This document shows, piece after piece, positions 60,600 to 62,864 of a stretch of DNA of 64,000 bases (positions are counted from its first letter, which is position 1; each line of letters opens with the position of its first letter). The position numbers and the translations under genes are program-made. Origin of the DNA: Heliorestis convoluta (GTDB taxonomy: Bacteria; Bacillota; Desulfitobacteriia; Heliobacteriales; Heliobacteriaceae). Below the pieces are notes generated by a model that saw nothing but the letters and a program-made list of their open reading frames with translations, was not told the DNA's origin and did no database searches. Where the stretch lies: assembly GCF_009649955.1 (NCBI RefSeq), contig NZ_CP045875.1, positions 2,027,501 through 2,091,500 on the forward strand, given 5' to 3'.

Positions 60600-61775
60600 A
60601 TGAACAATAAAGGCAAGAAAATCATAGTATTCGCCTTTATCATCACTGCATTCGCTCTTGTTCTTTCCGCCTGCGGCATCGGTTCTTTGGCTTCCACTAC
60701 GACTATAGGAAAAATCGACATGGGTGAGGTTCACGGCATGCCTCTCGCTATGAAGGGCAAAGAAGGCTTTGTCGGTCCCGATGAATGCATTGTCTGTCAC
60801 GTCAATGAACATAAGAACTGGGAAAAGTCCTGGCATACGCAAAAAGCCATGTGGGGTCCTTCTTTTGAAGATGCCTATGAAAATGATATCTACGACTGGG
60901 TACTTCAAGAGTGGGATAACTTAGAAACTTACATGATCTTAGACAAAAAAGATAACAACACCAACTATGTAGCCGTAGAAAAAGTACAATGGCAAGATGT
61001 AGACTTCATTATCGGCAAAACGTACAAGCAACGTTACATGACTTATTACAATGGAGAACCAAGACAAGCCTATCTGCAGATAACAGAAGATGGCGGTATT
61101 TCCTGGACCATTGATAAGTCTGTGGTCGTTGAATACGAAGGCAATAAAGAGAGAGCAGGCTATAAATTTTTAGCCATTGAAACGAAGCCCAAAGAAGGGG
61201 ATCTGAACAAGAACAATTACGGAGAATTTCGCTCCTGGCAAGAACGCTGTATTAGCTGTCACACCACGGGCTTTGATCCCGATGCCTGGAACGAGGCCAA
61301 AGCTAACTTTGTCGCAGGGGAGCGAGAAGATTTACGAGACATTTTCGTTGCCGATATTCGCGTTTCTTGTGAAAGTTGTCATGGTCCTGGCGCTACGCAC
61401 GTGAATGATCCCACTATCAATAACATTATTAATCCCCGAACGCTAACCAATGTAGAGCAACGTCTCCTTGTTTGCCAGCAATGCCATACCAGAACGAGTG
61501 AAAACACCATGTATGGCAATGGTGCTAACGACAACCGTCGTTTTGTTCTCGGAGAACATACCTATGAAGATGTTATGAATTATGTTCGACCGGCTTGGGG
61601 CACCGGTAACCGCAACGTGTCCCCTGATGGCAAAGCTCGTCGTGGTCACCAGCAAGATATGGATATTATGCTCAGCCAGTACATCAAAGGACCGCGAAGC
61701 AATCACGCTCGTTTATCCTGTGCAGTTGCGTATACATCGCAGAAAGTTGCGCAAAGCAATGTCAACGGAAAGTAA
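60600..61775 (+). CDS. Multiheme cytochrome c lipoprotein, C-terminus probably damaged
   Basis: 391 residues. A lipoprotein signal with VLSACGIGS is present. Four CxxCH heme sites are seen at about residues 63 (CIVCH), 217 (CISCH), 257 (CESCH) and 292 (CQQCH). Near the end, Cys374 begins CAVAY where a fifth CxxCH is expected, and the protein stops 14 residues later, 20 bp before a 115-bp palindromic element. It is probably the extracytoplasmic terminal component of the operon. The substrate is unknown. GGGGG lies 7 nt upstream of the ATG. Confidence 0.85.
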   Translation: MNNKGKKIIVFAFIITAFALVLSACGIGSLASTTTIGKIDMGEVHGMPLAMKGKEGFVGPDECIVCHVNEHKNWEKSWHTQKAMWGPSFEDAYENDIYDWVLQEWDNLETYMILDKKDNNTNYVAVEKVQWQDVDFIIGKTYKQRYMTYYNGEPRQAYLQITEDGGISWTIDKSVVVEYEGNKERAGYKFLAIETKPKEGDLNKNNYGEFRSWQERCISCHTTGFDPDAWNEAKANFVAGEREDLRDIFVADIRVSCESCHGPGATHVNDPTINNIINPRTLTNVEQRLLVCQQCHTRTSENTMYGNGANDNRRFVLGEHTYEDVMNYVRPAWGTGNRNVSPDGKARRGHQQDMDIMLSQYIKGPRSNHARLSCAVAYTSQKVAQSNVNGK

Positions 61776-61795
61776 CAATCAGCAAAAAGTCCTCT

Positions 61796-61910
61796 GGGTC
61801 TGGTCATCACGCTTTCCGTAGCGGGACTTGGGACCTCAGCTGTCGCCAGCTTGCTGGCGGTAACAGCGTGGGACCAGTCCAGAGCGGAGGAAAGCGTGAT
61901 GACCAGACCC
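61796..61910. repeat. 115-bp palindromic element with possible target duplication
   Basis: Perfect 22-bp inverted arms lie at 61796-61817 and 61889-61910. The inside is also partly self-complementary down to a perfect 7-bp hairpin, CGCCAGC-TT-GCTGGCG (61844-61859). CTCT flanks it on both sides (61792-61795, 61911-61914). It has no coding capacity that I can support. It could be a MITE- or REP-like element or a very long hairpin. Nothing like it was noticed elsewhere in the window. Confidence 0.75.
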
Positions 61911-61984
61911 CTCTATGAAGTAACCCCAACGTAATCAGGAAAAGTTATTTTCATCAGTGGTTGTGCCCGACCGGGCATAGGGAG

Positions 61985-62765
61985 TTAATAGGGAAAAAAG
62001 CCTTCTACTTTTGTTCCACCTTCCGGCGGAGATGCTATGGTTAGCGTGCCCCCAATACGAGATGCTCGTTCTATCATCGAGGCAATCCCAAAACCACCTT
62101 TATTTAAAGTGCTTATCCCAATTCCGTTGTCATGGATAGACAAGTGCATGCCTTGAGCCTTATAAATAAGCATAATCTGGACTTTGGTGGAGCGAGCGTG
62201 ACGAATCGCATTGGTAAGGGATTCATTGATAATAAGCAATAGATCTTCTTTTAACTGTGTTGCCAGTTCTTCCGGTTCTTCACCTTGAATAGAAAAATCG
62301 ATTAGAAGAGAAGAGGCTCGACGAAGAAAATGAAGGCGCTCTTGTATCACGTCTGATAAAAGTCCTTTTTCAATTCGAAGAGGTCGGAGATCGTGAACAT
62401 AGAGACGAATTTCTAGGATGATCGAATTAAGGTGAGTCATAACACGATCTAGATTTTCCTGTACCTCTGTTTCTTTATTTTTTTCTTTTACTAGAAAGCG
62501 AGTATTCTCCAATTCCAGACCAATTCCATAAAGATTTTGAATCACACCATCGTGAAGGTTCTGGGAAATTCGCTCTCGTTCTGCCGAAAGGGTTTGCTGT
62601 ACCATGAACAAGACCAAACAAACCAAGCCAGACCATAGGTCCAGCCAAAGTAAGGCGACTAAATCGCAGTCGTAAAGCAAAAATAATTAAGCCCATGGAG
62701 AAAAAAGACAGGCCATAGACGAAATAGACAAGAATGACTGTTAGCAATGGAAAGATATCGTGCAT
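61985..62765 (-). pseudogene. NarL-type sensor histidine kinase, broken by a frame change/internal deletion
   Basis: The N-terminal part (MHDIFPLLTVILVYFVYGLS, two membrane helices, ending LFGLVHG) is in one frame from 62765, and the kinase part is in another. The latter has the HisKA_3 box ERERISQNLHDGVIQNLYGIG and an ATPase domain with INESLTNAIRHA, DNGIGI and GGFGIASM. The two parts abut near 62600 with a one-base frame change and no linker domain, so some sequence seems lost. No response regulator is nearby. Confidence 0.7.
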
Positions 62766-62864
62766 ACAGAAGGCTCCTTCGTTACACTTAATCATAGCAT
62801 GTCCACGATAGAAGCAATTCTGTACGATTCTTTTCTGGACAAATCTACCTGCCTATGCTAACCT

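Follow-up and report, generated by a model that had tools for sequence, protein, structure and literature searches.

A composite hairpin repeat of Heliorestis and Heliobacterium at a deletion breakpoint beside a truncated multiheme cytochrome gene

Within the 64,000-nt stretch of Heliorestis convoluta DNA analyzed here (the window), a long palindrome stands between a multiheme cytochrome gene that ends early and a broken histidine kinase gene, which raises the question of what the palindrome is and whether it had a part in the damage on either side. An earlier note, made from the letters alone, had proposed a 115-bp non-autonomous mobile element of the REP or MITE kind, flanked by CTCT, lying 20 bp beyond the early cytochrome stop and possibly responsible for a rearrangement of the region. 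The palindrome itself is as that note described it: its perfect 22-bp arms are spaced by 71 nt (Table 1), and its predicted RNA fold reaches -81.7 kcal/mol vs. -48.9 kcal/mol for shuffled sequences (z = -7.7), with none of 200 shuffles as low. A second match to the 22-nt arm was not found in the 64-kb window, nor would one be expected by chance. The CTCT tetramers, too, are present on both sides (61792-61795 and 61911-61914).

Table 1. Features of the palindrome and its surroundings, in positions of the window.
Feature	Position	Strand	Remarks
Multiheme cytochrome gene, native part, 3' end lost	60600..61721	+	From comparison with the H. acidaminivorans ortholog
5'-truncated repeat copy	61724..61978	+	Unit positions 218-467: linker end, P2, tail and the larger part of the right-hand R module
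Hairpin P2	61796..61910	-	Variable outer stem and conserved head
Left outer arm, 22 nt	61796..61817	+	
Conserved head, between the arms	61818..61888	-	Sense strand TCCGCTCTGGACTGGTCCCACGCTGTTACCGCCAGCAAGCTGGCGACAGCTGAGGTCCCAAGTCCCGCTAC; basis: four-species consensus and covariation
Right outer arm, 22 nt	61889..61910	+	Perfect complement of left arm
Right part of R module	61947..61990	+	Separate 54-bp repeat, palindrome TGCCCGACCGGGCA
Histidine kinase remnant, frame-broken	61985..62795	-	

Comparison with further copies in the H. convoluta genome overturns both the boundaries proposed for the element and the meaning given to the tetramers. A search of that genome with a 146-bp query returned at least 40 near full-length matches with identities of at least 92%, and homology among these copies extends outside the CTCT sites. 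The tetramer next to P2 varies by copy, being TTCT or CTCT on the left and CTCT or CTGC on the right. CTCT is thus part of a repeat consensus, variable between copies and followed by further homology, and we reject it as a target-site duplication. Rather than ending at the tetramers, the repeat runs well past the palindrome. Its unit measures ~477 bp (reference copy L008:1233-1709) and comprises a hairpin in forward orientation, P1, and a reversed one, P2, with an inner head common to both. The palindrome of the window is the right half, P2, of this two-hairpin inverted repeat and belongs to a truncated copy that blastn aligns to the reference unit with 90% identity (E = 1.6e-93).

The single hairpin module is ~115-125 nt long and carries a conserved head of ~80 nt on a variable stem; the P1 and P2 halves are only ~70-75% alike, each being a hairpin by itself. 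Covariance model R1 gives the window hairpin 124.9 bits on the minus strand, which corresponds to the sense orientation of the family, vs. 44.8 on the plus strand. Arms that pair without a break over 22 bp, as here, are the exception (8 of 71 P2 copies), and 50 of the 71 have only 13 uninterrupted pairs. The doublets lie inside a further module, R (TTAACACGAAAATAGCATTTTCATC..GGTTGTGCCCGACCGGGCATG, 54 bp), between GAAAATAGC and ATTTTCATC. R is found in at least 70 places in the genome, and 8 of 70 copies among the matches listed have no hairpin within 400 bp. At a few loci R stands in tandem without a doublet, and R tandem arrays occur among loci L124-L192 (e.g., L143, L147, L164, and L192); at L147, around 950-1130, a ~107-bp tandem duplication holds a terminator-like hairpin together with part of R. 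In several places a third module, the short S (GTGTCACGGGGACGTTTCGTTTG...), is nested beside R. The repeat is therefore a mosaic of R, S, P1, and P2.

The earlier note had held that a single copy at a conserved position would point to a terminator or an RNA. The hairpin is instead multicopy, and most of its sites are empty in Heliorestis acidaminivorans. Covariance model R1 gave at least 150 matches over the H. convoluta genome, of which 149 were used, at ~89 loci; the total is approximate and possibly slightly low, 150 candidates having been scored. These 149 hairpins form 60 inward-facing inverted pairs and 29 singles. In all but one of the 60 pairs the starts lie 232-256 bp apart (P1-P2 ~240 bp), so that we are dealing with inverted extragenic doublets at fixed spacing, and with each pair counted as 477 bp the family would occupy approximately 1-1.1% of the genome. 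Only one unit lies within a long open frame. A replichore bias in doublet orientation was not seen, on a genome whose origin position is not established.

Doublets are more frequent in convergent than in divergent gene gaps (23 vs. 9, p = 0.02), as might be expected of a bidirectional terminator, copied for its usefulness, with P1 and P2 pointing inwards in the gap between two genes. T-runs also follow many sense-strand hairpins (e.g., TAGGTACTTTTTTTTT in L082), namely behind P2-type stems and some H. acidaminivorans stems. However, no T-run stands behind P1 stems, single hairpins are not aligned with the upstream gene (tandem contexts in H. acidaminivorans are 6 against and 4 with), and an ordinary terminator-like hairpin already precedes the repeat at some loci (e.g., L170 and L174). 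A consensus scan likewise found no terminator at the window hairpin, which is weak evidence owing to the loop limit of the scan. Altogether we consider a terminator function as the reason for the copying highly improbable.

Comparison with H. acidaminivorans bears more directly on mobility. Flanks were compared with 1.29 Mb of that genome (three whole or partial contigs and smaller pieces), a site being counted as comparable where the sequences flanking an H. convoluta copy are neighbors in H. acidaminivorans. The hairpin is absent at 21 of the 24 comparable sites; gaps of 553 and 568 bp in H. convoluta, for example, correspond to gaps of 63 and 76 bp. At the remaining three (L136, L150, and L158) a hairpin occupies the same intergenic gap in both species, and some positions may therefore be old, although the one at L158 differs in orientation and place and so looks independent. 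The earlier note had proposed a search for empty sites with one CTCT; most sites are indeed empty, and CTCT is part of the repeat consensus. Around the intergenic copies, no target-site duplication was found, the flanks being too diverged and R and S being nested around many copies; exact insertion ends are unreadable because of that divergence.

Copying might also proceed without a dedicated transposase, through recombination and gene conversion among intergenic repeats, with the arms changing by template switching within the palindrome. The mosaic of R, S, P1, and P2, together with the tandem arrays and internal deletions that occur among the copies, fits such a route, as do the extended flanks that L138 and L163 have in common and the paired changes of the P1 stem, which show few one-sided intermediates. 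Most copies, however, have no flanking homology past the modules, so that simple flank conversion fails to explain about 60 dispersed doublets, and we regard this route as very unlikely.

What the copies have kept in common is a head and a pattern of pairing. Among 30 distinct hairpins from four species, standard pairs fill 92% of pair cells, a percentage that is raised by the fitting of the alignment to the model. Of the 44 stem pairs, 31 have changed on both sides; cells changed on both sides number 264 vs. 80 in shuffles, and the covariation score is 0.504 but no higher than 0.13 with slid partners, a large contrast. Conserved positions cluster around TCCCACG / CTGAGGTC, a bulged A and a bulged C among them, and the bulges and internal loop (CCCACG / CTGAGGTC) are invariant across the four species. 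Selection on an RNA, selection on single-stranded DNA in its folded form, or a correction process internal to the palindrome could each keep the stem paired. An RNA strand bias, sought in the ratio of G-U to A-C, was not consistent (1:4, 15:4, 7:13) and does not decide among the three.

The family is restricted to Heliorestis and Heliobacterium. No hairpin was found in five other Heliobacteriaceae genomes or in further searched members of the class, and an exact pattern run against 84,980 genomes and viral contigs, strict enough that diverged copies may be missed, matched only these two genera. The 477-bp unit had no match among phages and plasmids, and a phage, plasmid, or viral origin was rejected. 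The hairpins of H. acidaminivorans number about 13, none of them paired, and their heads are conserved while their stems differ; one of them lies close to an OLE RNA gene (Rfam RF01071, L104:1844-2458). Heliobacterium chlorum and H. mobile have five hairpins each, at the 3' flank of the 23S rRNA: 8 of the 10, all oriented alike, follow shortly after a recognized 23S 3' end, one (L100) adjoins what by eye is a short remnant of a 23S 3' end, and one (L087) lies beside rRNA-flank sequence without a 23S end. Such confinement looks like vertical inheritance rather than transposition. As these copies sit where 5S rRNA is often found, a divergent 5S rRNA was considered; it was rejected, the real 5S genes lying elsewhere in the Heliobacterium genomes and the fold being a single hairpin. 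We found no literature on repeats of this kind in heliobacteria, and the published analysis of the H. convoluta genome mentions repeats solely in the context of CRISPR (PMC7143216).

The rRNA genes of H. convoluta itself are unusual in several respects. There is one complete 23S rRNA gene (C1 778368-781287), and two 5S rRNA genes lie upstream, not downstream, of it (L117, C1 781576-782074). At least five truncated 23S 3' fragments (C1 3427-4544, 505731-505992, 1534624-1535010, 2322932-2323460, and 3215535-3215923), some of them adjoining tRNA genes, look like remnants of lost rRNA operons, and one truncated 23S fragment (L122) has its boundary right at an R module.

The invariant bulges and internal loop, the covarying stems in four species, and the eight Heliobacterium copies set alike behind 23S would all suit a functional structured RNA, whether an sRNA or an RNA-protein site, that would act in the rRNA transcript in Heliobacterium, e.g., in processing after 23S, and for which dispersal is secondary. 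We nevertheless judge this reading unlikely. A known RNA family was rejected, as Rfam 15 matched neither the window hairpin nor those of the relatives. The hairpin is missing from one H. mobile rRNA operon (L111), from H. convoluta's own 23S gene, and from the five other Heliobacteriaceae genomes, and is therefore dispensable. In the rRNA operons it is oriented opposite to the family sense strand, neither strand has a consistent excess of G-U over A-C, and single hairpins have no orientation preference toward neighboring genes.

Among known repeat systems, the closest likeness is to REPINs and BIMEs. REPINs are described as inverted pairs with singlets as remnants and with compensatory stem changes (PMC3116915), and their mobilization in trans is ascribed to RAYTs. 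A GTAG tag, small size, and a RAYT are the defining features of REPs and REPINs (PMC8266576, PMC3733652). The heliobacterial repeat is likewise extragenic, with two related inverted palindromes at fixed spacing, tandem clusters, singlets that are likely remnants, and compensatory stem changes, and lies mainly in tandem and convergent gaps. Its palindrome, however, measures ~115-125 nt with a complex head, where REPs have 20-50 nt; the doublet is ~477 bp long; its base bears no GTAG tag; and no RAYT, with or without repeats beside it, was found in the H. convoluta genome. The 5' flanks of single hairpins read TGTGG, TACAG, GCCTG, TGCAG, and others, with no conserved GTAG 5' of the palindrome, while in many copies CTAG or CTGG abuts the stem on the opposite strand, which we note as a lead only. 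Lacking the tag, the small size, and the resident RAYT, the repeat works like a REPIN and is not filed as one.

With MITEs it shares shortness, a non-coding nature, many copies, and unoccupied sites in a relative, and its two halves are inverted homologs in the manner of long terminal inverted repeats. Neither a target-site duplication, sought in strongly diverged flanks, nor an autonomous parent with the same ends, sought between and beside the copies examined, was found, and it differs in that its halves are so dissimilar and each itself a hairpin. ERIC, the 127-bp palindromic intergenic repeat of enterobacteria, is by description similar in size, palindromic, intergenic, and non-autonomous; to our knowledge, it has no comparable arrangement of head and variable stem. 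IS200/IS605 elements are recognized through subterminal hairpins with unpaired bases, a feature that the heliobacterial hairpin shares.

The earlier note had also suggested looking for a transposase with matching ends. None was found between or beside the copies examined, and the genes between neighboring copies are ordinary, without a transposase, in six gaps examined. A Y1 transposase gave a single match in the H. convoluta genome, an IS605-type TnpA beside a TnpB-like frame. The end hairpins of this TnpA/TnpB locus are unrelated to the repeat hairpin and do not match its model, and kinship with the resident element was rejected. H. acidaminivorans has three RAYT-like Y1 transposase genes (L285, L286, and L287; open frames of 240-308 aa), with no hairpin near any of the three.

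Taking together the ~149 dispersed hairpins, the 21 empty sites, the ordinary genes between neighboring copies, the covarying stems, the excess of doublets in convergent gaps, their near absence from long frames, and the truncations with an edge at the repeat (window locus) or at an R module (L122), we favor, with a probability of roughly 0.7, a non-autonomous interspersed repeat of Heliorestis and Heliobacterium, REPIN- or MITE-like in character and mobilized in trans by a putative enzyme. The earlier note was right in kind, if wrong on the boundaries and on the CTCT duplication. The base module would be a single hairpin of ~125 nt whose head is invariant. The P1/P2 doublet of H. convoluta may have arisen when two diverged modules became joined in inverted orientation, and would then have been amplified to about 60 copies, presumably by transposition; the singles may be older elements or remnants. 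The enzyme would recognize a single strand once it is folded, through the head together with the paired stem, and the most likely candidate is an HUH/Y1-type transposase that recognizes hairpins. Under such recognition the stem sequence could vary freely as long as pairing is maintained. The head might alternatively be the recognition site of an undescribed mobilizing system, a new hairpin-specific or RNA-acting enzyme that tolerates any paired stem and whose site in Heliobacterium is the 23S rRNA 3' flank, a variant that we think quite unlikely.

An interspersed repeat of this kind may double as a point of breakage and recombination, and the window offers an example. In H. acidaminivorans the counterpart of the locus is intact, the order being cytochrome (502 aa), LuxR-type response regulator, and histidine kinase (481 aa), with the kinase/regulator pair at L224:6712-8776. 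The H. convoluta cytochrome is 85% identical to its ortholog over residues 4-374, where the ortholog continues to 502 aa. At the nucleotide level the two align as far as 61720, and the repeat begins at 61721-61724, which is unit position 218, in the P1-P2 linker. Accordingly, the last cytochrome codons, from ~61722 to the stop at 61775, are encoded by the repeat itself, and the early stop that had been placed 20 bp before the element lies inside it. Both the C-terminal part of the cytochrome and the gene for the response regulator have been lost, and the edge of the repeat is the deletion breakpoint, which upholds the suspected rearrangement. On the simplest reading, the repeat was inserted downstream of the cytochrome gene and was later hit by a deletion that ended inside it, an order that we infer; this deletion would have extended from within the cytochrome gene as far as the P1-P2 linker, taking the cytochrome C-terminus and the response regulator with it.

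Locally, then, the repeat accounts for the broken cytochrome and the lost two-component regulator of this H. convoluta strain. More broadly, it extends REPIN-like repeats beyond their customary REP/RAYT context: its hairpins are far larger, and an invariant head is clearly set apart from a stem preserved only as pairing. With ~150 copies in one complete genome, single hairpins in the sister species, and rRNA-linked relatives in the sister genus, both the spread of the family and the maintenance of its stems are directly testable.
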